DNA of 64,000 nucleotides from contig NZ_CP064295.1 of assembly GCF_015476115.1 (NCBI RefSeq), positions 2,040,001 to 2,104,000 of the forward strand, given 5' to 3'. Below, one piece after another: positions 39,471 to 56,233 of the stretch. Under the pieces are notes generated by a model. It searched no databases and was not told where the DNA came from. It was given only the letters and a program-made list of their open reading frames with translations. This DNA comes from Aegicerativicinus sediminis. GTDB lineage: Bacteria > Bacteroidota > Bacteroidia > Flavobacteriales > Flavobacteriaceae. Made by a program: the position numbers and the translations under genes. The first letter of the stretch is position 1. Each line of letters starts with the position of its first letter.

Positions 39471-39843
39471 GATTACTTAGTTTAAAATTTATTTAATGCA
39501 ATTACTCTAGGGGAAGGTATTTTGTTGGATTATGAACTTACTTAATTAAGGTCAACTGTTCAATGATCAATATCAGAAATCATTGTATATCAGATTATCA
39601 AATTATATGAAGGGTAATTTTAATGGGTAAATGAACTTATGGTGACTTGTCTAACCCAATATTATTGTTTTCTAAGAGTGAATGTCATTTTTTGCAAGGG
39701 TTTGTTGTTTTTCCTGCCAAGGGAATAAGAGCTGTTATTTTCCTAAATGTTGTAGCAAAAATTAGCGGAGATTGATCAATATCATTTCATTAACGACTAC
39801 TAATACATATTTTCTTCGACTGTTTTTATTAAAGTTTCGTATT
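39471..39843. other. Divergent intergenic region without a gene
   Basis: A 373-base A+T-rich gap between the divergent surface-protein and lipoprotein genes. It contains one inverted repeat, CAATGAT-N11-ATCATTG (39561-39585). I found no promoter matching TTTG-N19-TAnnTTTG on either strand and no coding frame. Confidence 0.5.
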
Positions 39844-40425
39844 ATGAAAAAGCATATTTTATTATTGGTAGGTTTATTTATTTTAAACTATGGTTGCAGT
39901 ACTGGCGATATCATAGAAGAAAATAATGAAATAACCGGATTAGAAGAAAAAGCACTATTAACACATTTGGCTATTGATATGTCAAATGGAGATTTGAATG
40001 TTTTTAAAAAGTCATCAAGTGCAAATGCTGTTACAAGGACTATTAAATTTCAAAGATCATCTGGGTATTTTGATTTTGTTTACCCTTCAACGGATTGTTC
40101 GCCATACCTACAGGTTTTGATTGTTGGAAATGGTAATGCCACTTTTTTGGGAAATTTTGAAGTGATCAATAAATATTGTTTTGATGGGGAAAATCCTGTA
40201 GGGCCTATTTATGGTTTCCTAAAAGCAGCTAATGGGGACGAAATTTTTACACAAATGATTGGCGCCACAGAACTACCAGCCCCGGAAATATCAAATTTTG
40301 AATATATCATTCTTGGGGGAACAGGAAGGTTTGAAGGAGCAACCGGTTCAGTTCATATGTATGGTATCATCGATAGGATTAATTTTCTGTTCAACCTAGA
40401 GGGTGAAGGTGAAATTACTTTTTAA
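39844..40425 (+). CDS. Lipoprotein with GGTGRF motif (AOC/dirigent-barrel-like)
   Basis: 193 residues from the ATG at 39844; the frame is open further upstream but the signal peptide begins here. A lipoprotein signal ends in NYGC (about Cys18). The C-terminal half contains YIILGGTGRFEGATGSVHMYG, a pattern seen in bacterial allene-oxide-cyclase/dirigent-like beta-barrel proteins. The gene at 40605-41240 on the other strand encodes a related protein with the same motif. The function is unknown; the family assignment rests on one motif. Confidence 0.55.
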   Translation: MKKHILLLVGLFILNYGCSTGDIIEENNEITGLEEKALLTHLAIDMSNGDLNVFKKSSSANAVTRTIKFQRSSGYFDFVYPSTDCSPYLQVLIVGNGNATFLGNFEVINKYCFDGENPVGPIYGFLKAANGDEIFTQMIGATELPAPEISNFEYIILGGTGRFEGATGSVHMYGIIDRINFLFNLEGEGEITF

Positions 40426-40604: not shown

Positions 40605-41240
40605 TTATCTCCCTGCTTTGTTTGATCTACTGCCGGGATAAAACGTGATTTCACCAGTAAAAATATGATCCGTTTGATGTTCTGCTATAAAACCATCAGG
40701 GAAATTGGCCCAACCACCTTCTAGCAGGTTTACCCAACTGTCCGTAACTCCGCTACCGGTAGCGCCCATAAAACGTCCTGTTCCACCAGTAATTTCAAAT
40801 GCATCTCCAAACCAAAGTTCATAATATGGATCGTCAAAAACTTGATAAATTATACCAATTTCTCCAGTAGGAGGAATGTTAAAATATAATTCATCTCCAT
40901 TATCCGCTACAAAAGTTCCTTCTCCACCTACGTATTTAAACTCACCAGGAGGCCCACAGAAGGAAATGGTAACTGTAAAGTCGCCCAAATGGGTTCCATC
41001 CCCACTGCCCACCTGATAATTAGGAGAGCTATAATCTCCATATGCAGAGCAATCTGGAGTATAGGAGTAATCCCTTTTTGTAAAAAACTCTGCTTTGAAT
41101 GGAACGGTTACGGCCTTTTTAGAGGCTTGTTCCAGAGAGGTCATTTCCATAATAGTAATTTCGTCCAATGGTTCATTAGAACAGGAAAATGTAATTAATA
41201 AGGAGATTAGGGCAACCCAAATAAAACTTTGAATTTTCAT
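40605..41240 (-). CDS. Lipoprotein with GGTGRF motif, relative of the preceding gene
   Basis: 211 residues from the ATG at 41240. A lipoprotein signal ends in TFSC (about Cys19). ITGGTGRFMGATGSGVTDSW near residue 150 parallels the motif of the protein at 39844-40425, and both share a DGxxLG(D/N)F segment about 70 residues earlier. The two genes converge with their own terminators between them, so they look like separately controlled paralogues. An AOC/dirigent-like barrel is suspected; the role is unknown. Confidence 0.6.
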   Translation of the reverse strand: MKIQSFIWVALISLLITFSCSNEPLDEITIMEMTSLEQASKKAVTVPFKAEFFTKRDYSYTPDCSAYGDYSSPNYQVGSGDGTHLGDFTVTISFCGPPGEFKYVGGEGTFVADNGDELYFNIPPTGEIGIIYQVFDDPYYELWFGDAFEITGGTGRFMGATGSGVTDSWVNLLEGGWANFPDGFIAEHQTDHIFTGEITFYPGSRSNKAGR

Positions 41241-41549
41241 TTTAAAAGAATTAAAGATTAGAATAAGTTGCATTGAAGGGAGGGCACTGAATTTGGAGCA
41301 AATTTTTTCAATGCGTCATAGCTGGTTTAATAACTTTTGAAAGTTATAGGCTTGTGCTTAAAGCCTCAATAAGTTAGTAAAAAAATTTTCAATTATAAAA
41401 TGATAAAAGTCATAATGTATTTCTTGATTATATCATACATTATAAGGTTGATTTAAAGTCTTAGGGGATAATTATCAGTGATTATTAGTAGGCTTATTTT
41501 AATTACCCATTGATATGTTTAAATAGTTTATTAATTCAGTATTATAGGT
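41241..41549. other. Divergent intergenic region with a CRP/FNR-like site
   Basis: A 309-base A+T-rich gap. It holds an imperfect palindrome, ATGAT-AAAA-GTCAT (41400-41413), one mismatch from the sites before nifJ and korA. A weak -7 candidate, TAAGGTTG (41443-41450), points towards the gene at 41550. No coding frame is seen. Confidence 0.4.
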
Positions 41550-43890: not shown

Positions 43891-43990
43891 TATGACTTTA
43901 TGTTCTTTTTGTATTTAAAATTATTTTAAAAAGAATTTTAATTATTCTATACTTTGAAGCGTAAAAAACCCGCTAGAAGCGGGTTTCAAT

Positions 43991-44209
43991 TTACTTATTG
44001 TAATCTCTTAATTTTTTGTATCCATAAAGCCCACCAGCTGCGAGCAGAACAAATAAGCCTTGGATAGGTACACCTGGTGGTGGTCCAGGACCGCCCACTG
44101 CTCTTGGACTACGTGCACGTTCTCCTCTAGGCGCATCATCACTTCTTCCTTGTGCCATAATTGCAAAGGGTAAGATAAGGATGATTAGTAATAGGGCTAA
44201 TTTTTTCAT
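43991..44209 (-). CDS. Small protein with exosortase-type (PID-CTERM-like) sorting signal
   Basis: A 72-residue protein with three parts that leave almost no mature domain: a signal peptide (1-20, ending MAQ), an Arg/Pro/Gly-rich linker (21-42), and a C-terminal tripartite signal. The signal consists of PPPGVPIQG (43-51), a short hydrophobic helix (52-63, LFVLLAAGGLYG) and a basic tail (KKLRDYNK). It closely resembles the PID-CTERM sorting domain of Bacteroidota, here with Gln in place of Asp. Its ATG overlaps the TAA of the upstream surface-protein gene by one base, so translation is coupled. An exosortase is encoded at 48177-48710. Confidence 0.75.
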   Translation of the reverse strand: MKKLALLLIILILPFAIMAQGRSDDAPRGERARSPRAVGGPGPPPGVPIQGLFVLLAAGGLYGYKKLRDYNK

Positions 44210-47200
44210 TATTCTTTAATTATAATCTTTTTGATATAACTCTTATTTCCAGATTCCAATTTTAGGATATAAGAAGAATAAGGGTCAAATTTATGACTAA
44301 TTTCTACGGTATTAAAACTGTTAACAACATTTTTGCTAATCACGGTTTTTCCTAACATATCATACACAGTGATGTTTGCGTTAGGTAAGGTGGTATCATT
44401 GAACAATTTTAGTTCTATACCATTATTGGTCGTATACACTTTAATCCCATCTTTAGCCAACACCTCTTCTTCCACACTTAGCAGATTATTTACAAAGACT
44501 ACACTGAATCGGGCAGAATCGAAATTGGCCTCACTAGTAAATTTTTTTGGTGAATCCATTGTAATAGGGGTCAATGAATTGTCATTAGAATCTAGGATAT
44601 ACATATCTATACTAGAATCTAGGTTTTTCATTTCCATAACAGAAATTTCATAGGTACCTGAGTATCCTAAGGACATTCCCAATGGGATTACGGTTTCATT
44701 AGTTACAAATGGAATACCTTGTATTAAATAAGGTTGATTATCTATGTAAGAATAAAACTCAAGGTTTGGGTTACCTCCAATCATTCGACCATCATAAATA
44801 TTGTCAATCCCCATAGTTGCTTCATCGGCAAAACCGACAATAATATCTTTTTCATATTTATTGCCAACGGCCGTTAATTTAAACCGGATTGATGAAAGTT
44901 CTTCAGTATCGACACTTTTAGAAGTTCTGAAAAAAGAAGCATCTTCATTACTTCCGGTAACCCTCATATCGTTATTGAATTCTAAAACCCCATTTTCCAC
45001 ATTTGCCTTTACGAAGAACCCTTGCGCTGTACCTACATGATCATTATACTTACCAGGATTATTTCCACCAGCGGCTCCAAAAATATTGATCGTTACATAG
45101 TCTGCATTAGTTCCTTGTGTGCCAACCGGATTGTCATCATCCCAAATCCATAATTCTCCTGTTATAACATCAGTATTCGGAATAATGAAATTGGCATAAG
45201 AAATAGCACTGGGATAAGGATTGGATACTAAATTATACCCTGCTTCCGTTCCATCTTGATCTAAATTATAAACTAAATTTCGAGTGTAAGTACCATTATT
45301 AGGGTTGCCGACGAAAGTAACGGTACCAGTATATGCACTAAATAAAGCATCGGCAACTGGCATTACAAAATTATCTCCAACCCAAGCATAACGTCCACTG
45401 CCATCTACTCCATATGGTCTAGTTTCTACATATTCATATTTAACGCTTCCAAGTACAGATGCAGTTTCTCCACTAACAGGAGGTCCAACAACACTATACT
45501 GACCCCCAGTAAAGGTGGTATTTCTTATAATGGTATGTTGATCACCTGTTATGATACCTTCAGTAAGCAAAGAGCCTCCAGATTGCACCGTTATAAATCC
45601 TGGATCTCCAATTACATCACCGTTAGCAACTAAGCTACTGCCAGGATTAATTGTTAATCCACCCCTTAATCTAATGTTATTAATAAACTCTACAACATTT
45701 CCATCTATAATAGGGAGATTAGGAACATTGTTAATGGCAACATTGTTAGCCCCTGTTGGAACACTGAACGAGCTCCAATTAGCTGGTTCGTTCCAATCGG
45801 TATTCACAGTCCCCGTCCAAACAATCATATAGGAGCCAATTGGAAAAGGATTCACTGCGGTTGCATTTGTAGTTTCATTCGCCAAGGCGTCAATTCCTAT
45901 TATATTCCAATTGTTAATATTAAAGTCATAACCATCAGGTCCGGTTCCAGGAATGCGATATGCCCAAGCCTGGGTATATTCCCATGCAGTTCCAGTGCCA
46001 TCCACATCAGGATCACCATAGATGTCTATTATATCACCAAATTGATAAAGTTCAACAGCATCATCACCTCCCGGTTTAAGTGAATTGTCTACATAATCTG
46101 GTGCAAAACCGAAAAACTCTGTGAATCTGTTTGCATTGCCGGTTAAGTAGATATAAGTTCCTTCAGCAACAGAAATTGCCGGAAATGTAAATTCTTGGTT
46201 ATCGCTACCGCCACCATTATCTGCAACACCAACTCCAAATTCACTTAAATCTGCAATATCCTCCAAGACATACAATTCAATAACTTTAGGAGTATCGCTT
46301 GGAAGTGGACCGCTCATTACACCAGAAATTAATATGGGTGGACGAGGAATTACAAGTCCTTCCAAATTTATGATTTCTTCTAATCCAGAAGAACCAATGT
46401 TTATTGTAGACTGATACACTTGGTAGGTGCTACCATTTGCCATTAATCCTGCAGCAAGGCGTACATATATAGTGGTAGGTTGTATACGGCCATTAGATGG
46501 GGTTAATGATATTGATGTTGAATAATTTGAATCATCTGTTGATATTTCAAAATAGTCTTGAGCGATAATTGTTAGGTCCTCTGTAAGGTTAATGCCTGAA
46601 ACGATAAACGTATCACTGGCAGAAGGTCCATTTTCCTGATAATATTGGAAACCTAATAGAGTCTGAGGGACTACTCCTATTTCTGGGTCTGTTGAAAGTG
46701 TAAAAAGAGTTTCGTCTATAGGCGAAATACTTGAAGCTGTAACATTCCAATTAGCAGGATTAAAAGGTGTGGTACCGCTTAATTGATTTATAACTTCAAA
46801 AAAACCGATTGAAGAGAGACCTGTTCTGGTTCCAGTATACTGGCCATTATTAGTTGAGATTCTAAGGATAAAATTGAAACCATCAGGGAAAGTTCCAACT
46901 AACCCAGTTTTGCCAATGGCATGTAAAAATGTAGTAGCCGTTGTTGGAGAACCAATGTATGCAGTAATATTATCCCCTTGAGGAGAAAATTTAAATGCTG
47001 AAGGTCCTCCACCAGCTACTTTATCGAAATCCACCTGATGGGCTTTATATCGTATGACCGATCCCGCGCTTATCCCCCCAGAAGGCACAGTATAACTGAA
47101 AACAGTTTCATTGCCATTGATAATATAATCTCCATCCATTAAATTATCAGTGAAATAAATAGTGGTGCCGGCTTCTAAATCAATAAAGGTGACAAATGCA

Positions 47201-47322
47201 AAATCTTCTGTAGGTACGTCTAATGCTATTATTGCAATATCACCAGTAGAAACGGTGGTTTGGGAGAATGAATAGGCATAACTGAAAAGAAATGCCAAAG
47301 CAATGAGTAATTTTTTCTTCAT
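44209..47322 (-). CDS. Large T9SS-sorted surface protein
   Basis: 1037 residues from the ATG at 47322; an earlier start at 47346 is possible but the signal peptide (MKKKLLIALAFLFSYAYSFSQ-like) begins here. The N-terminal part (GDIAIIALDVPTEDFAFVTFIDLE) and a lamin-tail-like region (about 325-495; VIELYVLEDIADLSEFGVGV, IYLTGNANRF) are typical of large flavobacterial surface proteins. A central beta-helix-like stretch and a T9SS type A C-terminal domain (last ~80 residues, ANITVYDMLGKTVISKNV ... SYIKKIIIKE) follow. Function unknown; probably adhesive or binding. It shares an operon with the small PID-CTERM-like gene. Confidence 0.82.
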   Translation of the reverse strand: MKKKLLIALAFLFSYAYSFSQTTVSTGDIAIIALDVPTEDFAFVTFIDLEAGTTIYFTDNLMDGDYIINGNETVFSYTVPSGGISAGSVIRYKAHQVDFDKVAGGGPSAFKFSPQGDNITAYIGSPTTATTFLHAIGKTGLVGTFPDGFNFILRISTNNGQYTGTRTGLSSIGFFEVINQLSGTTPFNPANWNVTASSISPIDETLFTLSTDPEIGVVPQTLLGFQYYQENGPSASDTFIVSGINLTEDLTIIAQDYFEISTDDSNYSTSISLTPSNGRIQPTTIYVRLAAGLMANGSTYQVYQSTINIGSSGLEEIINLEGLVIPRPPILISGVMSGPLPSDTPKVIELYVLEDIADLSEFGVGVADNGGGSDNQEFTFPAISVAEGTYIYLTGNANRFTEFFGFAPDYVDNSLKPGGDDAVELYQFGDIIDIYGDPDVDGTGTAWEYTQAWAYRIPGTGPDGYDFNINNWNIIGIDALANETTNATAVNPFPIGSYMIVWTGTVNTDWNEPANWSSFSVPTGANNVAINNVPNLPIIDGNVVEFINNIRLRGGLTINPGSSLVANGDVIGDPGFITVQSGGSLLTEGIITGDQHTIIRNTTFTGGQYSVVGPPVSGETASVLGSVKYEYVETRPYGVDGSGRYAWVGDNFVMPVADALFSAYTGTVTFVGNPNNGTYTRNLVYNLDQDGTEAGYNLVSNPYPSAISYANFIIPNTDVITGELWIWDDDNPVGTQGTNADYVTINIFGAAGGNNPGKYNDHVGTAQGFFVKANVENGVLEFNNDMRVTGSNEDASFFRTSKSVDTEELSSIRFKLTAVGNKYEKDIIVGFADEATMGIDNIYDGRMIGGNPNLEFYSYIDNQPYLIQGIPFVTNETVIPLGMSLGYSGTYEISVMEMKNLDSSIDMYILDSNDNSLTPITMDSPKKFTSEANFDSARFSVVFVNNLLSVEEEVLAKDGIKVYTTNNGIELKLFNDTTLPNANITVYDMLGKTVISKNVVNSFNTVEISHKFDPYSSYILKLESGNKSYIKKIIIKE

Positions 47323-47529
47323 AACATGGTTTTGAGGCCTAGACAATTACGTCTGGTTAAAGGAACAAAGATAGGTAAATCAATAAAATGGAGATGTTCC
47401 TAACGCTTAAAATCTTAATTCTATTGGCATTTCTTGAGGGATTACTAATTTAAGGGGTATTAAATTATCATTTGTTCAAATGAGTTCTAATTTGCAGGGA
47501 TTAAGTTTTAGATACTTAAAAAAATAAAA

Positions 47530-47550
47530 TACATTTGTGAATTAAATTTG
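47530..47550 (+). promoter_or_regulatory. Two candidate -7 elements before the barrel-protein gene
   Basis: TACATTTG (47530-47537) and TAAATTTG (47543-47550) both match TAnnTTTG. For the first, a TTTT at 47506-47509 lies in the -33 position with 20-base spacing. The start codon is at 47571. Confidence 0.45.
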
Positions 47551-47570
47551 TCTCTAAATCTCTTGATTAC

Positions 47571-48149
47571 ATGAAATTTTTTAAAATAATTGTTGCCGTA
47601 CTATTCTTATTTACAGGTGTTAAAGGTATGGCGCAGTTTCAAGATGTAAAGCCATGGAGCGTTGGACTTTCCTATAATATTGTAGATGATTCCTCTTTAA
47701 GATTTGAAGAGTTTTTCGATATAGGTGAACATTGGAATACTACTATAATACCTGCGACTTTTCACCTTGAATACGTTTTCGCTCGGCAATTTTCAGGTGA
47801 GGCAGCCTTAAGTTTTAATCGTTTTATCCCTCAATATGAAACATTCTATGATCCACCTGAGGACCGAAAATTTTATGTGGGATTTGATTTAAATTCTAAA
47901 TTTTATTTTCTAAAAGAAGATGATTTTCGCAGAGATGATTGGCAGCCTTATGTTATTGCTGGTTTTGGTTTTTCAACCGTTGATACTCTTAATTGGTTCC
48001 ATTTTAATTTCGGTGTAGGATTAACCTATTGGATAGACAATGTTTGGGGAGTAACTGCCCAAACTACTGGTAAATGGACCTTCGATTTGTCGGATTCTAC
48101 CAATTACAAGCATCATATGATTGGTGTGCGCTATATTTTTGCAGATTAA
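47571..48149 (+). CDS. Outer-membrane beta-barrel protein
   Basis: A 192-residue protein with a signal peptide (about 1-21, GMAQ). The rest alternates aromatic and polar residues in short strands (WSVGLSYNIVDD, FHLEYVFARQFSGEAALSFNRF, FYVGFDLNSKFYFL, PYVIAGFGFS, FNFGVGLTYWIDNVWGVTAQTTGKW, HMIGVRYIFAD). This is the OmpA/OmpX-like eight-stranded barrel pattern, ending in a C-terminal aromatic strand. There is no peptidoglycan-binding domain. It lies 27 bases before the exosortase gene on the same strand, so it may be co-expressed. Confidence 0.75.
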   Translation: MKFFKIIVAVLFLFTGVKGMAQFQDVKPWSVGLSYNIVDDSSLRFEEFFDIGEHWNTTIIPATFHLEYVFARQFSGEAALSFNRFIPQYETFYDPPEDRKFYVGFDLNSKFYFLKEDDFRRDDWQPYVIAGFGFSTVDTLNWFHFNFGVGLTYWIDNVWGVTAQTTGKWTFDLSDSTNYKHHMIGVRYIFAD

Positions 48150-48176
48150 TCTACAATTTCAACTTAAAGGCTAAAA

Positions 48177-48710
48177 ATGGCCGAACTTTCTAAACAAGCT
48201 AAAAATCAACTTGTTAAACGGTTTTTAATCTCTGCTTTACTGCTTTTTATAGTTTGGCAATTAGCTTACAATTTAGTTTTAAAACCAAATGGTTCTTTAG
48301 ATGAGGCTCTAACCTCTATTGTTGTGAAGGGAACTGAATTGGGTATGAAAATCTTTAATAGTAATTCTGAAGCAAGAGGTAATATCATTTATATTAATGG
48401 AAATGCTGCAATTAGGGTGGAACATGTGTGCAATGGGCTAGAACTCATGGTGTTATATGTGTGTTTTTTCCTGTGTATTCCTGGTCGCATAAGGCCGAAG
48501 ATGAGCTACATTATTCTTGGATTGTTTATTGTTTTTGTTTTAAATACAATTAGGCAAATGTTATTGGCCTATAACTATTTATATTTTAATTCAACTTTTG
48601 AATTCAATCATAAGTATACGTATATAGCAGTAATCTATTTTGCCGTTTTTCTTCTTTGGAGACATTGGCTCATACGTTACTCGATAATAGCTGAGAACCG
48701 GAATAAATGA
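48177..48710 (+). CDS. Exosortase/archaeosortase-family protein
   Basis: A 177-residue polytopic membrane protein. The catalytic triad of exosortases is present: C85 in EHVCNGLELMVLY, R126 in VLNTIRQMLLAYN and H145 in EFNHKYTYIAVIYF. These are transpeptidases that cut and anchor proteins bearing PEP-CTERM-like signals. The length is that of the short Bacteroidota types (XrtX/XrtF-like); I cannot fix the subtype with certainty. The stop overlaps the next gene's start (ATGA). The probable substrate is the 72-residue protein at 43991-44209, or others elsewhere in the genome. It precedes the polysaccharide export genes, as exosortases often do. Confidence 0.85.
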   Translation: MAELSKQAKNQLVKRFLISALLLFIVWQLAYNLVLKPNGSLDEALTSIVVKGTELGMKIFNSNSEARGNIIYINGNAAIRVEHVCNGLELMVLYVCFFLCIPGRIRPKMSYIILGLFIVFVLNTIRQMLLAYNYLYFNSTFEFNHKYTYIAVIYFAVFLLWRHWLIRYSIIAENRNK

Positions 48711-49183
48711 TTGGTAAAAAATCACTCAAATCGTTTTTTATTGTTGCATTAATTGTTCTTTTAGGTTCATTTGAATTCCAAATTATAGAAGGGATAAGTG
48801 ATTTTATGGCAGCTTTTATCCACGAGGGCCAAAACTCTTTTATAAATCAATTAATAAGTAGTTATGGCTCTTCGAAATCGATCAATGAATGGATCGCCAA
48901 TTACCTTGTTTTTTACCCGATTTATTTATCATGCCATTTTTTGTTGATTCATTTTTTATTTATCAACGAACCCAACATAGGTGGAATTTTGAAATTAGCA
49001 TTATTGGTGCTTTTATTAACCTTAATAGTCGGAAAGCTTCTGTTCGGCTATTTACAGATGCCTATATTGGCAGAATATGTTAGTTTTGCATTCCATAAAT
49101 TAATTGGGCTTCCTTTTTTGCTTCTGGCAATAGAAGGAGGTAGGCAATTTTATAAATATATCTTTATTGAGGACAGAGGCTAA
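48707..49183 (+). CDS. Exosortase-associated membrane protein
   Basis: A 158-residue protein with about four membrane helices and no recognisable catalytic motif. The start overlaps the exosortase stop (ATGA), so the two are translated together. Small partner membrane proteins of this kind accompany Bacteroidota exosortases (for example the XrtX-associated membrane protein), which is the basis for the call. It ends inside the first codons of the next gene. Confidence 0.65.
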   Translation: MIGKKSLKSFFIVALIVLLGSFEFQIIEGISDFMAAFIHEGQNSFINQLISSYGSSKSINEWIANYLVFYPIYLSCHFLLIHFLFINEPNIGGILKLALLVLLLTLIVGKLLFGYLQMPILAEYVSFAFHKLIGLPFLLLAIEGGRQFYKYIFIEDRG

Positions 49184-50039
49184 TTTTTCCGAGCGCTCAG
49201 ACATAACTCTGGTAATTGAGCCGAAATCGCGATTGTTTGACCTTAAACTAAGGGAAGTTTGGCGATATAGAGATCTCTTGTTATTATTTGTGAGGCGAAA
49301 TTTTGTAGCGGTCTATAAACAGACGGTGTTGGGGCCATTGTGGTTTTTTATCCAGCCGATCCTAACCACAATTATGTTTATGGTGGTGTTTGGAGGTATT
49401 GCCAAGATGAGTACAGATGGGATGCCTCAGGCTGTTTTTTATTTGGCTGGCATCGTTACTTGGAATTACTTTGCGGAATCGCTAAAGGGTACTTCCAATA
49501 CGTTTACAGCCAACGCGAGTATTTTTGGAAAGGTTTATTTTCCTAGGGTGGTGCTTCCATTGAGCATGGTAATTACAAAATTGTTAACCTTTGGAGTGCA
49601 ATTTTTTCTTTTTTTAGTTGTTTTTAGCTATTATTATTTTTTTCAGCAAACAACGATACAGCCGAACGCTGCCCTAGCACTGTTACCGATATTAATCTTT
49701 ATTACAGCGGGTTTAGGGTTGGGTTTCGGTTTAATAATCTCAGCTTTAACAACTAAGTATCGAGATTTTCAATATTTGTTAAGTTTTGCGGTGCAATTAG
49801 GGATGTATGCAACGCCCATAATTTTTCCGTTAAGTTCTATTGATAATCCATTGATTCGGAAAATTATTATGGCAAATCCTATGAGCCCAATCATTGAGAC
49901 ATTTAAATATGGGTTTCTAGGTGCAGGGTATTTTGATCCCCTTTGGTTATTATATAGCTTTGGATTTATGGTAATCTTATTGTTCTTAGGTCTTGTAGTG
50001 TTTAACTCGGTGGAAAAATCCTTTATGGATACGGTTTGA
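49167..50039 (+). CDS. Polysaccharide ABC exporter, permease (Wzm-like)
   Basis: A 290-residue ABC-2 permease with six predicted helices. Motifs are RRNFVAVYKQTVLGPLWFFIQPILTTIMFMVVFG and SALTTKYRDFQYLLSFAVQLGMYATPIIFP, the hallmark of O-antigen and teichoic-acid exporters. The start is TTG at 49167, overlapping the upstream gene by 17 bases; no ATG in a sensible place is seen. With the following ATPase it exports a finished, lipid-linked glycan across the inner membrane. Confidence 0.92.
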   Translation: MRTEANFSERSDITLVIEPKSRLFDLKLREVWRYRDLLLLFVRRNFVAVYKQTVLGPLWFFIQPILTTIMFMVVFGGIAKMSTDGMPQAVFYLAGIVTWNYFAESLKGTSNTFTANASIFGKVYFPRVVLPLSMVITKLLTFGVQFFLFLVVFSYYYFFQQTTIQPNAALALLPILIFITAGLGLGFGLIISALTTKYRDFQYLLSFAVQLGMYATPIIFPLSSIDNPLIRKIIMANPMSPIIETFKYGFLGAGYFDPLWLLYSFGFMVILLFLGLVVFNSVEKSFMDTV

Positions 50040-50048
50040 TTTAAGTGT

Positions 50049-51335
50049 ATGGAACCCATTTTAAAAGTAGAAAATATTAGTAAGCAATATCGACTTGGTA
50101 ATGTTGGCACGGGCACACTTAGCCATGATCTTAATAGGTGGTGGCACAAGGTTAGAGGTAAAGAAGACCCCTATTTAAAAATTGGGGATACCAATGATAG
50201 GACGGTAAAAGGTTCGTCAGATTATGTTTGGGCTTTAAGGGATATTAATTTTGAAGTTCAACCAGGTGAGGTTCTTGGAATCATTGGTAAGAATGGTGCC
50301 GGGAAATCTACCCTTTTAAAGTTATTGAGTAGAGTAACTGCACCAACAACAGGTATAATTACGGCACATGGAAGGATTGCTTCCCTTTTGGAGGTAGGGA
50401 CAGGCTTTCATCCAGAGCTTACCGGAAGAGAAAATATCTTTCTTAATGGGGCAATATTGGGAATGACCAAGGCTGAAATTCGTTCTAAATTTGATGAAAT
50501 TGTTGATTTCGCAGGGTGTGAACGCTATATAGACACACCGGTAAAGCGCTATTCCTCGGGTATGTATGTGCGCCTGGCTTTTGCTGTAGCAGCACATTTA
50601 GAACCAGAAATATTGGTTGTTGACGAAGTTTTGGCTGTTGGAGATGCCGAGTTCCAGAAGAAAGCTATTGGAAAGATGAAGGATGTTAGTCAAGGGCAAG
50701 GTAGGACTGTATTGTTTGTAAGCCATAATATGGCGTCCATTCAAAGTTTGTGCACAAGATCCATCCTATTGAATAATGGAAAAGTTGAAATGATTGGGGA
50801 TACTGAAAGTGTTATTTCTCATTACTTAAAGGTTTTTAAATCAAGCAGTACAATTGAACCTTTAAATACTAGAAAAGATAGGGAAGGTAACCAAACTATT
50901 GTTTTTGAAGATTATTGGTTGGAGGACGAGTTTGGTGAAAAAATTGAATTTTTTCAATCAGGTCGGAACTGTAAATTCGTTTTAAGAATTCGTAATAATT
51001 CAGAAAATCAATTAGATAAAATAAGAATATCTGTTGGTGTGGACAATAAATATGGGGATAGGATTACCATTTTTGACAGTTCACTGGTTGGAGACGAATT
51101 AATTCTTGCTGGCCACCAAACCGCCATTGTTAAAATAAATATTGATAAATTTCCTTTAAGTCAGGGCCTGTATTACTTTACAGTATACTCTAGCGTCAGG
51201 GAAATTGTATCAGACTGGGTCAAAAATGCAGGTAGTTTTGATGTTGAGGCGGGTGATTTTTTTGACACGGGCAGGGTCATAGATAATAATCAGGGTAATT
51301 TTTTGGTGAAGCACAAATTCAATTTAAGTGATTAG
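50049..51335 (+). CDS. Polysaccharide ABC exporter, ATPase with C-terminal glycan-binding domain (Wzt-like)
   Basis: A 428-residue ATPase. Walker A is GKNGAGKST (residues 80-88), the ABC signature is YSSGMYVRLAF and Walker B is ILVVDEVLAVGD. Residues from about 270 form a Wzt C-terminal beta-sandwich, which in O9a-type systems recognises the modified, non-reducing end of the polymer before export. The last 46 codons lie inside the 1.22 kb repeat and have a second copy at 53637-53783. A methyltransferase-like gene follows 5 bases later, which would suit chain-end methylation read by this domain (inference). Confidence 0.93.
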   Translation: MEPILKVENISKQYRLGNVGTGTLSHDLNRWWHKVRGKEDPYLKIGDTNDRTVKGSSDYVWALRDINFEVQPGEVLGIIGKNGAGKSTLLKLLSRVTAPTTGIITAHGRIASLLEVGTGFHPELTGRENIFLNGAILGMTKAEIRSKFDEIVDFAGCERYIDTPVKRYSSGMYVRLAFAVAAHLEPEILVVDEVLAVGDAEFQKKAIGKMKDVSQGQGRTVLFVSHNMASIQSLCTRSILLNNGKVEMIGDTESVISHYLKVFKSSSTIEPLNTRKDREGNQTIVFEDYWLEDEFGEKIEFFQSGRNCKFVLRIRNNSENQLDKIRISVGVDNKYGDRITIFDSSLVGDELILAGHQTAIVKINIDKFPLSQGLYYFTVYSSVREIVSDWVKNAGSFDVEAGDFFDTGRVIDNNQGNFLVKHKFNLSD

Positions 51336-52410
51336 GTTAAATGTTAAGTAAGATTAAAGACAGGGTACGTGCCAACCTATTGGAGCTCGGCCTAAGATAT
51401 AATAACAAGAGCGAGGTACTTAAGCAATTGATGGGCCAGGACGAGCGGGAGGCCTACAGTCATTTGAGGCAGGGCTATCTAAATGAAATTGGTTGGTGGA
51501 ATGCCTGGAGGAGCAAATCCCCTCTTGGGCCGGAGGACAATCCCATTCCATGGGTGACCTATAGTTTTATCGATTTTGTTGAGGAGAGGCTTACAGATGA
51601 CCTAGGCATGTTCGAATTCGGTTCCGGAAACTCCACACTCTATTATAGCCGTTATATTAAGGAAATCCATACGGTGGAACACGACAAGGAATGGTTTGAA
51701 AAGATCAGGAAGGGTATGCCTTCAAATGTATTCCCGATATTCAGGGAATTGGAGTACGGCGGTAAATACTCGAAAACCGCTGTCGATACGGGAAGGAAAT
51801 TTGATATGATTATAGTGGATGGAAGAGACCGTGTTAATTGTATGATAAATTCTTTTCCTGCTTTGACGGAAAAAGGGGTCATGGTATTGGATGACTCTGA
51901 GCGCGAGCAGTATGCTAAGGGGGTGAACCATGCAATGGACAATGGTTTTAGGAGGATAGATTTTTGGGGAATATCCCCGGGATTGTTTTATAAAAAGTGT
52001 ACTTCCATATTCTACAGGGATAAGAATATTTTGGGAATTTAATAGCTGAGACTAAGGTTTTACGGAATTATTATGGAATTAGCTCCTATTGTTTTATTCG
52101 TTTATAATAGACCCGAACATACGTTAAAAACGTTGAGGGCCCTCTCTGAGAACGATTTGGCTGATAAGAGTGAGCTTTACATTTTTGCTGACGGCCCAAA
52201 GCCGGGAGCAGATTCACAAACCTTAGAGGATATATCGAGGACAAGGGAAGTTCTGGGGCAGGCACAATGGTGTAAGGAGGTGCATATCTTGGAACGGGAG
52301 ACCAATATCGGGTTGGCAAATTCGGTTATAGATGGGGTTACCCAAATCGTGAACAAGTACGGGAAGGTCATTGTGTTGGAGGATGACATCGTAACTTCTA
52401 CGGGGTTTCT
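51189..52410 (+). repeat. Direct repeat, copy 1 (1.22 kb)
   Basis: Bases 51189-52410 recur at 53637-54858 with a constant offset of 2448. By eye I count six differences, all in the first ~190 bases, and see none after that. The unit spans the last 46 wzt codons, the whole 233-codon methyltransferase-like gene and the first ~113 codons of the glycosyltransferase at 52073. After 52410 the sequence changes abruptly and becomes much more A+T-rich. No transposase, terminal inverted repeat or target duplication is seen, so homologous recombination or a duplication is likelier than an insertion element. Confidence 0.95.
51341..52042 (+). CDS. Class I SAM methyltransferase-like protein, copy 1
   Basis: A 233-residue soluble protein. 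MFEFGSGNSTLYYSRYI (about residues 88-104) is a methyltransferase motif I; VEHDKEW follows as the acidic loop, FDMIIVDGRDRV resembles motif IV, and EKGVMVLDDSER lies further on. It is similar to the class I SAM methyltransferases of capsule loci, although enzymatic activity is not proven. The G+C content is much higher than in the flanking glycosyltransferase genes. An identical protein is encoded at 53789-54490. It might methylate the chain end recognised by the preceding Wzt (inference). Confidence 0.7.
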   Translation: MLSKIKDRVRANLLELGLRYNNKSEVLKQLMGQDEREAYSHLRQGYLNEIGWWNAWRSKSPLGPEDNPIPWVTYSFIDFVEERLTDDLGMFEFGSGNSTLYYSRYIKEIHTVEHDKEWFEKIRKGMPSNVFPIFRELEYGGKYSKTAVDTGRKFDMIIVDGRDRVNCMINSFPALTEKGVMVLDDSEREQYAKGVNHAMDNGFRRIDFWGISPGLFYKKCTSIFYRDKNILGI

Positions 52411-53626
52411 AACATATATGAATAGTATATTAACGGAATTCCAAAATAACGATAAGATTTATAGTGTTAGTGGGTATATGTATCCTCATAATGTTGACAT
52501 AAATGGGATTTATTTTTATAATATACCCTTATGTTGGGGATGGGGTACATGGAAGAGGGCTTGGGAATGTTTTATTATTGATTCAAAATATTTATATGAA
52601 GCTATTGACCGAAGGAATTTATGGAAAGACCTAAATAAATTTGGAAATAATGATTTAAGAGAACAATTGGTTAATAATGTTTTAGGTTCCTTAAATACAT
52701 GGTTTATTAAGTGGCATGCAAGTATTTTATTGAAAAATGGTTATTGCATTTTTCCATCTAAATCTTTCGTTAATAATATAGGTTTTGATTCAACTGGTGA
52801 ACACTGTACAACGACCGATATATTTTTTAATTCTAAACTGGAAACGAGGGTTCCGTTAAAAATTACAGAATTCAAGGAATCTGAAGTCCTAAGGGATATA
52901 ATAACGGAACATTACTCTAGAGCTTCGGGAATTAGAAAAAATCCTTCTCAACCTTTTAGAATTAAAAGATTTTTTGTTCGTATAATGAGAAGAATTTTGG
53001 AAAAAATTTATCCAGATTTATTAAAGCTGAAAGAATTAAAAAGGGATTCTATTTCAGAAGACTTGTTATTTATGGATTCTATAAGAGGTGAATATGTCAA
53101 AATTTATCCTCCTTTTAATTTAAGGCTATCTAAAATTGATGACTATACCTATATAGCTGAAAATTCTAATATTTCATATACAACCATTGGTAAATTTTGT
53201 TCAATTGGTCCTAACTTAATGTGTGGTTATGGGATTCATCCAATTGATAAAATTAGTACACATCCAATGTTTTATTCTACATTAAAACAAAATACTATTA
53301 GTTTAACTAAAGAGGATAAAATTGAGGAAAGAAAATTTATTACAATTGGGAATGATGTTTTTATTGGTGCCAATGTGACGATATTAGATGGTGTAACAAT
53401 TGGAGATGGAGCAGTTGTTGGAGCAGGATCGGTTGTAAGTAAAGATATTCCTCCTTTTGCTGTAGCTTATGGTTCACCAATACAAGTGAGAAAATATAGA
53501 TTTGATTCAGAAACTATTTCAAAATTGCAAAGTATTAAATGGTGGAAATTTGAAGAATCTGATTTACTGTTAGTTGAGAAATATTTTGACAAGGTAGATG
53601 AATTCATCAATTTATTTCCTAAGTAA
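52073..53626 (+). CDS. Glycosyltransferase with C-terminal hexapeptide acyltransferase domain
   Basis: A 517-residue fusion. The N-terminal GT-A domain (about 1-290) opens with APIVLFVYNRPEHTLKTLRAL and has the metal-binding LEDD (102-105) and PLCWGWGTWKRAW. The C-terminal part (about 355-517) is a left-handed beta-helix acyltransferase with repeated hexapeptides (FCSIGPNLMCGYGIHP, FITIGNDVFIGANVTILDGVTIGDGAVVGAGSVVSKDIPPFAVAYG). One polypeptide would thus add a sugar and acetylate it or its neighbour. Residues 1-117 are identical to those of the gene at 54521; thereafter the two only resemble each other and then carry unrelated ends. Confidence 0.85.
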   Translation: MELAPIVLFVYNRPEHTLKTLRALSENDLADKSELYIFADGPKPGADSQTLEDISRTREVLGQAQWCKEVHILERETNIGLANSVIDGVTQIVNKYGKVIVLEDDIVTSTGFLTYMNSILTEFQNNDKIYSVSGYMYPHNVDINGIYFYNIPLCWGWGTWKRAWECFIIDSKYLYEAIDRRNLWKDLNKFGNNDLREQLVNNVLGSLNTWFIKWHASILLKNGYCIFPSKSFVNNIGFDSTGEHCTTTDIFFNSKLETRVPLKITEFKESEVLRDIITEHYSRASGIRKNPSQPFRIKRFFVRIMRRILEKIYPDLLKLKELKRDSISEDLLFMDSIRGEYVKIYPPFNLRLSKIDDYTYIAENSNISYTTIGKFCSIGPNLMCGYGIHPIDKISTHPMFYSTLKQNTISLTKEDKIEERKFITIGNDVFIGANVTILDGVTIGDGAVVGAGSVVSKDIPPFAVAYGSPIQVRKYRFDSETISKLQSIKWWKFEESDLLLVEKYFDKVDEFINLFPK

Positions 53627-53636
53627 TATTCTGTGT

Positions 53637-53783
53637 TCTAACGTCAGGGAAATTGTATCAGACTGGGTCAAAAATGCAGGTAGTTTTGATGTTGAGGCGG
53701 GTGATTTTTTCGATTCGGGTAGGGTCATAGATAATAATCAGGGTAATTTTTTGGTGAAGCACAATTTCAATTTAAGTGATTAG
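53637..53783 (+). pseudogene. Remnant of the wzt 3' end
   Basis: These bases encode the last 46 residues of Wzt (VREIVSDWVKNAGSFDVEAG onward) with two substitutions (Thr to Ser, Lys to Asn) and the original stop. There is no promoter, ATPase domain or proper start: an open frame from 53598 starts within the preceding gene in another frame. It is a by-product of the duplication. Confidence 0.85.
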
Positions 53784-53788
53784 GTTAA

Positions 53789-54490
53789 ATGTTAAGTAAG
53801 ATTAAAGACAGGGTACGTGCCAATCTATTGGAGCTCGGCCTAAGATATAATAACAAGAGCGAGGTACTTAAGCAATTGATGGGCCAGGACGAGCGGGAGG
53901 CCTACAGTCATTTGAGGCAGGGCTATCTAAATGAAATTGGTTGGTGGAATGCCTGGAGGAGCAAATCCCCTCTTGGGCCGGAGGACAATCCCATTCCATG
54001 GGTGACCTATAGTTTTATCGATTTTGTTGAGGAGAGGCTTACAGATGACCTAGGCATGTTCGAATTCGGTTCCGGAAACTCCACACTCTATTATAGCCGT
54101 TATATTAAGGAAATCCATACGGTGGAACACGACAAGGAATGGTTTGAAAAGATCAGGAAGGGTATGCCTTCAAATGTATTCCCGATATTCAGGGAATTGG
54201 AGTACGGCGGTAAATACTCGAAAACCGCTGTCGATACGGGAAGGAAATTTGATATGATTATAGTGGATGGAAGAGACCGTGTTAATTGTATGATAAATTC
54301 TTTTCCTGCTTTGACGGAAAAAGGGGTCATGGTATTGGATGACTCTGAGCGCGAGCAGTATGCTAAGGGGGTGAACCATGCAATGGACAATGGTTTTAGG
54401 AGGATAGATTTTTGGGGAATATCCCCGGGATTGTTTTATAAAAAGTGTACTTCCATATTCTACAGGGATAAGAATATTTTGGGAATTTAA
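53789..54490 (+). CDS. Class I SAM methyltransferase-like protein, copy 2
   Basis: The encoded 233 residues are identical to those at 51341-52042 and the DNA differs at one site that I noticed (near the tenth codon, silent). The same motifs apply: FEFGSGNST, VEHDKEW, FDMIIVDGRD. The near-perfect identity means that the duplication is recent or that the copies are kept alike by gene conversion. Both copies have intact frames. Confidence 0.7.
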   Translation: MLSKIKDRVRANLLELGLRYNNKSEVLKQLMGQDEREAYSHLRQGYLNEIGWWNAWRSKSPLGPEDNPIPWVTYSFIDFVEERLTDDLGMFEFGSGNSTLYYSRYIKEIHTVEHDKEWFEKIRKGMPSNVFPIFRELEYGGKYSKTAVDTGRKFDMIIVDGRDRVNCMINSFPALTEKGVMVLDDSEREQYAKGVNHAMDNGFRRIDFWGISPGLFYKKCTSIFYRDKNILGI

Positions 54491-54520
54491 TAGCTGAGAC
54501 TAAGGTTTTACGGAATTATT

Positions 54521-56233
54521 ATGGAATTAGCTCCTATTGTTTTATTCGTTTATAATAGACCCGAACATACGTTAAAAACGTTGAGGGCCCTCTCTGAGAA
54601 CGATTTGGCTGATAAGAGTGAGCTTTACATTTTTGCTGACGGCCCAAAGCCGGGAGCAGATTCACAAACCTTAGAGGATATATCGAGGACAAGGGAAGTT
54701 CTGGGGCAGGCACAATGGTGTAAGGAGGTGCATATCTTGGAACGGGAGACCAATATCGGGTTGGCAAATTCGGTTATAGATGGGGTTACCCAAATCGTGA
54801 ACAAGTACGGGAAGGTCATTGTGTTGGAGGATGACATCGTAACTTCTACGGGGTTTCTCACCTATATGAATATTGGTTTAAATATGTATACCTCAGAAAC
54901 ACGTGTTTATGGAATAAGTGGCTATAAGTTTCCTTCTTTTAAGCCCATTTTGGACGATACATTCTTTTTACCTATAATGAGTTCTTGGGGTTATGGCACT
55001 TGGAAAGATCGCTGGAACAGAATAAATTTTGATGCAAAAGATTTATTTGAAAAAGTTAAAATTAAGGGAGTGCTTAATAAATTAAATTTTGGAAATTTAA
55101 ATTTTAAGCAAATGTTAATCCAACAGATTGAAGGTGAAATAGATTCTTGGGCAATCAGGTTTTATGTATCTATGTTTTTAGACAAAGGGTTATTTCTTTA
55201 CCCGAGAGAATCATTATTAATAAATATAGGTTTTGATGGCTCTGGTGTCCATTGCAATGATGACCCAATAAAAAATGAAGAAGAATTAACTTCTAACGTA
55301 ATTATCAATTGCGCAAAACTTAAGGTCAACTTAAAAAAAAGTATTCTTAAGAAGTATATACCAAACAATTATAATATTATCAAAGTAATTAAACGGAACA
55401 AAAGGCATATTAGAGTGGTATTATCGGGGTTTAAATCCAAATTGCAAAATAAGTTTTTTGGCCCAAAATTAGGCGGTGATAAGTTAATCCTCGAAAAGAT
55501 TAGAGAAAGCCCCCGCTTTACACGAATGGATTTTCAAATTAATAATATGAATTTGACCATTCCGGATTCGGCTTCCTTTTATTTTATGTATAAAGAAATT
55601 TTCCATCAACATATTTATAAGTTCATTACAGATGTTAAGGAACCTTATATTATTGATGGTGGGGCAAACATAGGATTATCTTCTATTTATTTAAAGCGAC
55701 TATTCCCTAACAGTAAAATAATAGCCTTCGAGCCTGATCCGAACATTTTTAATTATTTGGTGAAAAATATAACCCAAAATAATATTAATGGTGTTGAATT
55801 AATAAATAAGGGTTTATGGAATCGTGAAGATAGCTTAAAGTTTAAGTCGGAGGGGGCAGATGGAGGCGTTTTGCAAGCTATAAATCCTGATTCAGATTTT
55901 ACTGAGGTTTCTGTCGATCTTATATCACTACGTCCTTATTTAAATGAAAAAATCGATTTTTTGAAGTTAGACATTGAAGGTGCTGAAACGGTTGTATTGA
56001 ATGATATTTTTGATGTATTAGATAACGTCGACAGGATATTTGTAGAATACCATTCTATGGTTGGTCAACCACAAACTCTTAATGAAGTTATTGATAGGTT
56101 GACGAAATCTAATTTTAGATTATTTATTTCCTCTCCTGGATTTTCAAATAAGTCCCCTCTTTTGGAACGGTTTACATATAATAATATGGATATGCAACTG
56201 AACATTTTTGGGATTAAAAATAATCTGTTATGA
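54521..56233 (+). CDS. Glycosyltransferase with C-terminal FkbM methyltransferase domain
   Basis: A 570-residue fusion. Residues 1-117 are identical to the gene at 52073. The rest of the GT-A domain (to about 290) is only similar, with SSWGYGTWKDRW in the same place as GWGTWKRAW. The C-terminal domain (about 340-565) is an FkbM-type SAM methyltransferase: YIIDGGANIGLSSIYLKRLFPNSKIIAFEPDPN, then DFLKLDIEGAE. It would add a sugar and O-methylate the glycan. The stop overlaps the next start (ATGA). Compared with its sibling, the shared glycosyltransferase head carries a different modification module. Confidence 0.87.
   Translation: MELAPIVLFVYNRPEHTLKTLRALSENDLADKSELYIFADGPKPGADSQTLEDISRTREVLGQAQWCKEVHILERETNIGLANSVIDGVTQIVNKYGKVIVLEDDIVTSTGFLTYMNIGLNMYTSETRVYGISGYKFPSFKPILDDTFFLPIMSSWGYGTWKDRWNRINFDAKDLFEKVKIKGVLNKLNFGNLNFKQMLIQQIEGEIDSWAIRFYVSMFLDKGLFLYPRESLLINIGFDGSGVHCNDDPIKNEEELTSNVIINCAKLKVNLKKSILKKYIPNNYNIIKVIKRNKRHIRVVLSGFKSKLQNKFFGPKLGGDKLILEKIRESPRFTRMDFQINNMNLTIPDSASFYFMYKEIFHQHIYKFITDVKEPYIIDGGANIGLSSIYLKRLFPNSKIIAFEPDPNIFNYLVKNITQNNINGVELINKGLWNREDSLKFKSEGADGGVLQAINPDSDFTEVSVDLISLRPYLNEKIDFLKLDIEGAETVVLNDIFDVLDNVDRIFVEYHSMVGQPQTLNEVIDRLTKSNFRLFISSPGFSNKSPLLERFTYNNMDMQLNIFGIKNNLL

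Follow-up and report, generated by a model that had tools for sequence, protein, structure and literature searches.

A PID-CTERM-like small gene paired with the gene of a type IX-secreted protein in Aegicerativicinus sediminis, and recurrence of the pairing in distant relatives

Results

A predicted minimal exosortase substrate is encoded in overlap with a T9SS-sorted protein

We analysed a 64,000-nt stretch of DNA from Aegicerativicinus sediminis (Flavobacteriaceae; NZ_CP064295.1, positions 2,040,001 to 2,104,000; hereafter the window), in which an initial annotation, made from the letters alone, had pointed to a tiny putative exosortase substrate encoded next to a large protein sorted by the type IX secretion system (T9SS). 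Exosortase genes lay nearby, and the small protein was proposed as an anchor or partner for the large one. Our analysis confirmed this observation and partly supported its interpretation. The gene families involved are already curated; the pairing of PID-CTERM genes with T9SS genes, and its spread, is the new part. The two genes and their features are as follows, with ‘sibling’ denoting a second species of the same genus.

43991..44209, minus strand: small PID-CTERM-like open reading frame (ORF), 72 aa, a predicted minimal exosortase substrate (ORF call, NF046080 score)
44153..44209, minus strand: probable signal peptide, residues 1-19, cleavage AMA/Q (by eye, from the sequence)
43994..44068, minus strand: putative sorting signal PIQG-helix-KKLRDYNK, residues 48-72 (sequence; NF046080 positions 6-24)
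44207..44211, minus strand: TAATG stop/start overlap of the large and small genes (sequence)
43965..43987, minus strand: terminator-like hairpin immediately 3′ of the small gene (fold energy)
44209..47322, minus strand: T9SS type A surface protein, 1037 aa (TIGR04183; 44% identity to the sibling’s 1036-aa protein)
44449..45525, minus strand: RemA/RemZ-type region, residues 600-958 (phmmer; common to paired proteins)
44215..44415, minus strand: T9SS type A sorting domain, residues 970-1036 (TIGR04183; fold comparison)

As first described, hardly anything in the 72-aa protein lies outside its signal peptide, Arg/Pro linker and sorting signal: a signal peptide is followed by ~28 Arg/Gly/Pro-rich residues, PIQG, a hydrophobic helix and KKLRDYNK. 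Read from the sequence, the C-terminal helix and basic end, LFVLLAAGGLYGYKKLRDYNK, match a PID-CTERM tail, with PIQG in place of a P-I-D type motif. The tail that the initial annotation had recognised is thus present, but its PIQG departs from the family: among the 123 proteins in which a pattern search located a motif, 118 carry PIDG, PLDG or PVDG, and the window’s is the only PIQG. On the NF046080 model (cut-off 26 bits) the small protein scored 24 bits as a protein, 25.3 in a six-frame search and 26 when frame neighbours were included. That six-frame search returned it as the sole PID-CTERM match in its genome, a single contig of 4.09 Mb. Its sorting signal is 77% identical to that of the sibling orthologue over 22 residues, and we regard the small protein as a divergent PID-CTERM protein (NCBIfam NF046080).

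The overlap of the small gene’s start with the large gene’s stop proved to be a single base, the ATG sharing it with the TAA (TAATG, 44211-44207), which makes translational coupling possible. The hairpin after the small gene (51-nt fold, -15.6 kcal/mol, z -3.71) has a 3′ arm that runs into six T on the minus strand; a consensus terminator scan returned its inverted repeat on the plus strand only, with a total of terminator-like sites not above that of shuffled sequences. Since hairpin and T run lie directly 3′ of the small gene on the same strand, the two genes appear to form a single unit ending there.

The large ORF encodes 1037 aa from its ATG, or 1045 aa from an upstream TTG. Its C-terminus scored 29.5 bits on TIGR04183 (cut-off 23), which bears out the earlier assignment as a T9SS-sorted protein and makes it a type A cargo, and 25.2 on Pfam PF18962, under the threshold of 27. 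In a fold comparison, the top rows for a model of this tail were DUF3244 Ig-like proteins (Z 10.7, 10.5 and 10.0), followed by the C-terminal domain (CTD) of RemA (Z 9.8; 75 residues, root-mean-square deviation (rmsd) 2.1); the mirolase CTD gave Z 9.5 (75 residues, rmsd 1.9).

The pairing recurs in the sibling and across the phylum

The sibling (genome G510, locus L244) keeps the window’s gene order. Its T9SS protein of 1036 aa is 44% identical to the large protein, and its 65-aa PID-CTERM protein carries ATPLDGGL, a consensus PLDGG signal, and reaches 42.7 bits on NF046080.

In a sample of 395 genomes of the phylum, with thresholds of E ≤ 1e-35 for XrtX and E ≤ 1e-4 for PID-CTERM, the exosortase XrtX was found in 57 genomes (45 over cut-off) and PID-CTERM in 58. 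Both occurred in 50 genomes, XrtX only in 7, PID-CTERM only in 8 and neither in 330 (p 5e-47). The initial annotation had tied the sorting signal to this exosortase, and the signal is present in 50 of the 57 XrtX genomes.

We then read 80 PID-CTERM loci from 41 genomes, taken from the top of the score list. A co-directional ORF of at least 80 aa ends within 600 nt upstream of the PID-CTERM gene at 75 of them and is missing at five. TIGR04183 recognised that upstream ORF in 64 of the 75 cases (65/76 with the window), that is, at 64 of the 80 loci, and in 57 of these 64 pairs the two genes are at most 100 nt apart. At least one such pair is present in 33 of the 41 genomes, or in 30 if only the first locus of each is counted. 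Among the 11 upstream ORFs of other kinds are metK, PorV-like, fumarase-like and prenyl synthase genes. T9SS genes account for a minor part of the gene set: ten genomes hold 18-122 each, and T9SS-tailed ORFs, detected with our own profile and with the pairs included, make up 45 of 623 ORFs of at least 200 aa in XrtX loci. At an assumed T9SS rate of 2.5%, the binomial chance of at least 64 in 80 is ~5e-87. The same locus in the sibling and the recurrent pairing together indicate more than chance.

The small partners are minimal. Many of 40 sequences keep only ~12 residues (for example PGLPxAPxQA) from the signal peptide to PIDGG, and the segment outside the membrane, often proline-rich, has a heuristic median of 13 residues; mature lengths are approximate, as cleavage sites come from a rough pattern that places some too far right. 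Cut by an exosortase, such a protein would yield a peptide. Not all family members are tiny: one PID-CTERM match lies inside a 995-aa open frame (G279:C1:2167132-2167203).

The large partners share a RemA/RemZ-type region

An alignment of 47 proteins (window, sibling and 45 of the 64 partners) is conserved from about residue 600 of the window protein to its end. The shared part before the sorting domain, ~360 residues, has no Pfam or NCBIfam match in the window protein, and in two other members no Pfam match was found either. Homology links it to the part of RemZ and RemA that precedes their CTD: a phmmer search with the window’s region and tail matched RemZ at E 2.7e-19, and a profile of the shared region matched RemZ at 5.7e-36 and RemA at 1.7e-35. 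A 30-member profile detected the region in 35 of 36 held-out partners, many of them from genomes that also supplied profile members; a profile of window and sibling alone found it in only 24 of the 64 partners. The N-terminal parts of the large partners are diverse, with lamin-tail, laminin-G, FG-GAP, RCC1, Kelch and ice-binding domains.

For a Hymenobacter member, the region was modelled with a predicted local distance difference test (pLDDT) score of 88.5. Foldseek found nothing in the PDB at E ≤ 1e-3 for this model, and the best match of a second look had Z 5.2 (117 residues, rmsd 4.0); the missing clear match is not proof of a new fold. The model of the window’s own region and tail was poor in its first part (mean pLDDT 67.7).

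The idea that the region is specific to proteins paired with PID-CTERM genes was dropped, as it is present in many unpaired T9SS proteins and in RemA and RemZ. We also set aside a test in which 18 paired proteins were compared with the full set of T9SS genes of six genomes; it was circular on the paired side because the profile had partly been built from the same paired proteins; its per-genome counts were made by hand. We rely on the held-out test instead.

An XrtX-like exosortase and polysaccharide export genes lie upstream, in divergent orientation

Beyond the large gene, the plus strand carries the following genes.

47571..48149, plus strand: outer-membrane beta-barrel-like protein, 192 aa (PF13505, 28.1 vs 28.7, sub-threshold)
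48177..48710, plus strand: XrtX-like exosortase, 177 aa, predicted catalytic residues C85, R126 and H145 (NF046081, TIGR04178, alignment)
48707..49183, plus strand: possible divergent XrtX-associated membrane protein (NF046082, 26.6 bits, E 4e-6, cut-off 75)
49167..50039, plus strand: polysaccharide export ATP-binding cassette permease, Wzm-like (PF01061, 62.4 bits)
50049..51335, plus strand: polysaccharide export ATPase with Wzt C-terminal domain (PF00005, PF14524)

The exosortase has all three catalytic residues, as first reported: C85, R126 and H145 are invariant across 13 XrtX-type sequences. With 42.4 on TIGR04178 (cut-off 23) and the Cys/Arg/His triad, it qualifies as an exosortase in the broad sense. 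The XrtX model NF046081 is its best by far at 155 bits, under the cut-off of 170, and the XrtF model gave 64.7 against 90; by these scores we consider it XrtX-like rather than XrtF. Its neighbour, which the initial annotation had taken for the second half of an exosortase pair, is no exosortase. It directly follows the exosortase gene with a 4-base overlap (48707-48710), as expected of an XrtX-associated membrane protein, and falls short of 75 bits on NF046082, so that such a protein is at best what it would be. The polysaccharide export genes announced right after the two are indeed there, as a Wzm/Wzt-type exporter.

The small gene is 4 kb from the exosortase, the distance given originally, but the start of the large gene is only 855 nt away. 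Transcription of the two sides is divergent and the barrel-like ORF lies between them, and thus the exosortase is not in the operon of the small and large genes in the window; of the single operon proposed earlier, only those two genes fit. In the sibling the exosortase is likewise XrtX-like (152.7/170), with a partner at 24.3/75 on NF046082, a similar-looking 205-aa ORF in place of the barrel-like one and, by eye, a permease-like ORF following.

Two side observations concern other parts of the window. A direct repeat of 1229 bases in the glycan cluster (51189-52417 and 53637-54865, 99.3% identical) means that a 233-aa ORF, the Wzt gene’s end and the opening part of a glycosyltransferase-like ORF each occur twice, yielding two ORFs with a common N-terminus and different remainders. 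Two adjacent small secreted proteins (39772-40425 and 40605-41273) have a GGTGRFxGATGS stretch in common and resemble paralogues.

PID-CTERM genes also stand beside XrtX in other genomes

As a single-protein query the window exosortase returned no relative in a scan of genome contigs; an alignment-based scan did, with 130 relatives confirmed and 80 loci kept, from Hymenobacter, Pontibacter, Adhaeribacter, Balneolaceae, metagenome-assembled genomes of Flavobacteriales and Neomarinimicrobiota, and others. Some come from genomes that are also in the phylum sample. A PID-CTERM gene immediately precedes XrtX at 37 of the 80 loci, and at 20 of these 37 a gene with the shared region directly precedes the PID-CTERM gene, 19 of the 20 with a T9SS tail by our own profile. 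Three XrtX loci hold five further PID-CTERM genes elsewhere, four of them behind a shared-region gene, and at locus L209 a comparable small ORF, not picked up by the profile, was recognised by eye. Among the 80 loci, none of those named Balneolaceae, Balneola, Gracilimonas or Rhodohalobacter has an adjacent PID-CTERM gene. The initial annotation had made its reading depend on joint occurrence of the small and large genes in relatives, and this was found in the sibling, at 64 of 80 PID-CTERM loci and for 20 of 37 XrtX-adjacent PID-CTERM genes.

Within the window’s family, no genome of a 120-genome sample exceeded the XrtX cut-off, and among 60 relatives the model reached E 1e-35 in the A. sediminis genome, the sibling and two genomes of other families. 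PID-CTERM matches occur in 41 of the 120 genomes. In family members at L005, L008 and L010 (G049, G084 and G019) and at L254, a frame of 112-163 aa ending in IPLDGG or VPLDGG lies directly before an exosortase, which in the one tested scored 126.7 bits on the XrtX model, below cut-off; no T9SS gene stands in front of these frames. A second pair in the family, in G087 (L247:6962-9662), consists of an 827-aa T9SS protein and a 68-aa PID-CTERM protein encoded 10 nt downstream, then sugar-transferase- and aminotransferase-like ORFs as read from the sequences.

XrtF tracks a different small gene, next to ribE

The A. sediminis genome also carries XrtF (223.5/90) and its partner (135.7/35), and XrtF is over cut-off in 75 of the 120 family genomes, an identical set of 75 in two separate scans. 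We considered this second exosortase as the enzyme of the 72-aa protein and set it aside: XrtF tracks another small gene instead. We examined ribE loci in 110 of the 117 genomes with ribE, leaving out G000, G003, G026, G059, G069, G081 and G105, with a pattern wider than in a first pass. A PID-like, small, proline-rich ORF lies tail-to-tail with ribE, by this pattern, in 66 of 70 genomes with XrtF vs 3 of 40 without; one of the 40 was not resolved, and the three pattern-positive ones are 84-88% complete. Nine matches were weak, the three in XrtF genomes looking PID-like by eye and the six in genomes without XrtF not, a rating that was not blind; one XrtF genome had no ribE-linked match at all. 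A strict test that counts all nine as negative gave p 3e-21. Genome G059 has the ribE-linked gene, and the A. sediminis genome a degenerate copy (L248:4568-4795, minus strand) that has no NCBIfam match. The observation on this gene and XrtF comes from loci L264-L373 and, in the A. sediminis genome, from that copy and L249:5441-6420 (plus strand).

The ribE-linked gene is a candidate for a dedicated XrtF substrate; XrtF may also act on the 72-aa protein. One report states that the targets of XrtF are not yet known (PMC12188702). In another, xrtF mutants of Flavobacterium johnsoniae have a colonisation and biofilm phenotype and exosortase substrates in that species are left to future research (PMC10936215). 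The ribE-linked gene offers a candidate locus for the XrtF substrate that could be sought in F. johnsoniae.

Discussion

A tiny PID-CTERM gene behind the gene of a T9SS protein is a recurrent arrangement, its large partners share a region, and PID-CTERM co-occurs with XrtX. Combining the pairing with the literature on exosortases and T9SS, we infer that peptide and partner meet at the cell surface and that the peptide helps to hold the partner there. At a probability of roughly 0.45, XrtX would process the 72-aa protein to a peptide acting at the surface as a partner or tether for the co-encoded RemA/RemZ-like T9SS protein. The signal peptide would direct export of the small protein, and the C-terminal helix would keep it in the inner membrane; XrtX would cut near PIQG and join the resulting ~28-residue peptide to a (glyco)lipid or polysaccharide precursor. 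The large protein would leave through the T9SS and be processed at its own C-terminal tail. At the surface, the peptide could be its dedicated partner or tether, associated with the polysaccharide that the neighbouring Wzm/Wzt system exports. A farther-reaching version is possible, and we advance it tentatively: exosortase and T9SS might form one two-part anchoring pathway in which the XrtX-conjugated peptide captures the RemA/RemZ-type region of its partner, so that minimal PID-CTERM proteins would be anchors acting in trans rather than cargo.

Several observations weigh against a tether. The window’s own small protein deviates from the family motif, and its score reaches the family cut-off at most. 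The 80 PID-CTERM loci, as the top-scoring ones, over-represent one family (f24, taken as Balneolaceae), and 16 of them have no recognised T9SS gene in front. Beside XrtX, 17 of the 37 PID-CTERM genes have no partner directly before them; two of the 37 have less than 600 nt of sequence there. Among 31 PID-CTERM loci of the window’s family read by eye (L001-L031, that of A. sediminis included), 25 adjoin ribE, three lie directly before an exosortase, two are behind a T9SS gene (A. sediminis and G087) and one is elsewhere; with only two of the 31, the cassette is rare in this family. G087 has a T9SS/PID-CTERM pair, yet XrtF was the only exosortase found, and XrtX may thus not be the sole enzyme for paired substrates. 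Finally, T9SS proteins with no adjacent PID-CTERM gene have the shared region too, as do RemA and RemZ, so that the region by itself needs no PID-CTERM peptide.

Some of these points fit shared regulation only, a serious rival that we nevertheless think rather unlikely: both proteins would belong to the extracellular matrix, the exosortase-processed peptide decorating or retaining exopolysaccharide and the T9SS adhesin being another component, and they would be co-expressed without acting on each other. In the window XrtX adjoins polysaccharide export genes, with a permease-like ORF by eye in the sibling as well, and there are PID-CTERM genes beside ribE or, lacking a T9SS partner, beside XrtX. 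The partner, however, is not just any matrix protein, given the same region in nearly all held-out partners; the paired genes are tightly spaced, and for plain co-regulation the genes would not have to be adjacent at several scattered loci of a genome.

Alternatively, the small protein could be an assembly factor, an inner-membrane or periplasmic helper for folding of the T9SS cargo or its delivery to the translocon rather than a substrate. Pairing with cargo genes and the stop/start overlap in the window would suit such a helper, but the extramembrane segment is tiny and often proline-rich, unlike a chaperone, and the C-terminal motif co-occurs with XrtX while similar proteins track XrtF; we judge this improbable. 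Quite improbable, too, is a signalling system in which XrtX releases a short extracellular peptide and the adhesin is co-encoded by happenstance: the predicted product is peptide-sized, but the peptides among the 40 sequences belong to a small number of types found again in different genomes (such as PGLPxAPxQAPIDGG), which is unlike species-specific pheromones. That the genes are chance neighbours, or the window’s small ORF a functionless degenerate one, as its off-motif PIQG and sub-threshold score might hint, is very improbable in view of the sibling’s intact orthologous pair and the binomial estimate.

The recurrent pair of a tiny substrate and a T9SS adhesin gives a testable, gene-level hypothesis on what exosortases do in these bacteria, and its presence in many distant relatives suggests that two pathways of protein sorting are connected in a way not recognised before.

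Comparison with known systems

The closest known system is PID-CTERM/XrtX (NF046080, NF046081, NF046082), which has in common with the window exosortase X, an adjacent membrane protein, a short protein that carries a motif, a helix and a basic end, and genome co-occurrence. The model names are NCBI’s, and this kind of system is thus known to curators. The window differs in that its exosortase and partner score under the curated cut-offs and its small protein lies at the border; the model descriptions shown do not mention a pairing with T9SS cargo. In open-licence PMC full text we found no paper on PID-CTERM or on XrtX as an exosortase (three that matched XrtX were unrelated), and none on an exosortase together with Hymenobacter.

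The XrtF system (TIGR04128, TIGR04127) likewise combines an exosortase with a small membrane protein as its partner and, judged by co-occurrence, with a single small PID-like protein; unlike here, its small gene adjoins ribE and does not lie behind a T9SS gene. PEP-CTERM/exosortase systems were reportedly treated by Haft (2006, 2012), and PEP-CTERM substrates are mostly normal-sized proteins, whereas the substrate here has little beyond signal peptide and sorting signal. Common to both are a motif-helix-basic tail, an inner-membrane exosortase and nearby polysaccharide genes (PMC7468200).

On the T9SS side, a cryo-electron microscopy report presents RemZ as a trapped substrate of which only the CTD is well resolved, and in the parts consulted mentions no exosortase partner (PMC10994853), a difference from the window. 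One study notes that VimA, a T9SS sugar-pathway protein, resembles an exosortase-associated family. With RemA and RemZ, the T9SS type A substrates of F. johnsoniae (8gl6, 8gl8), the large protein has in common both the region before the CTD and the type of the CTD itself.

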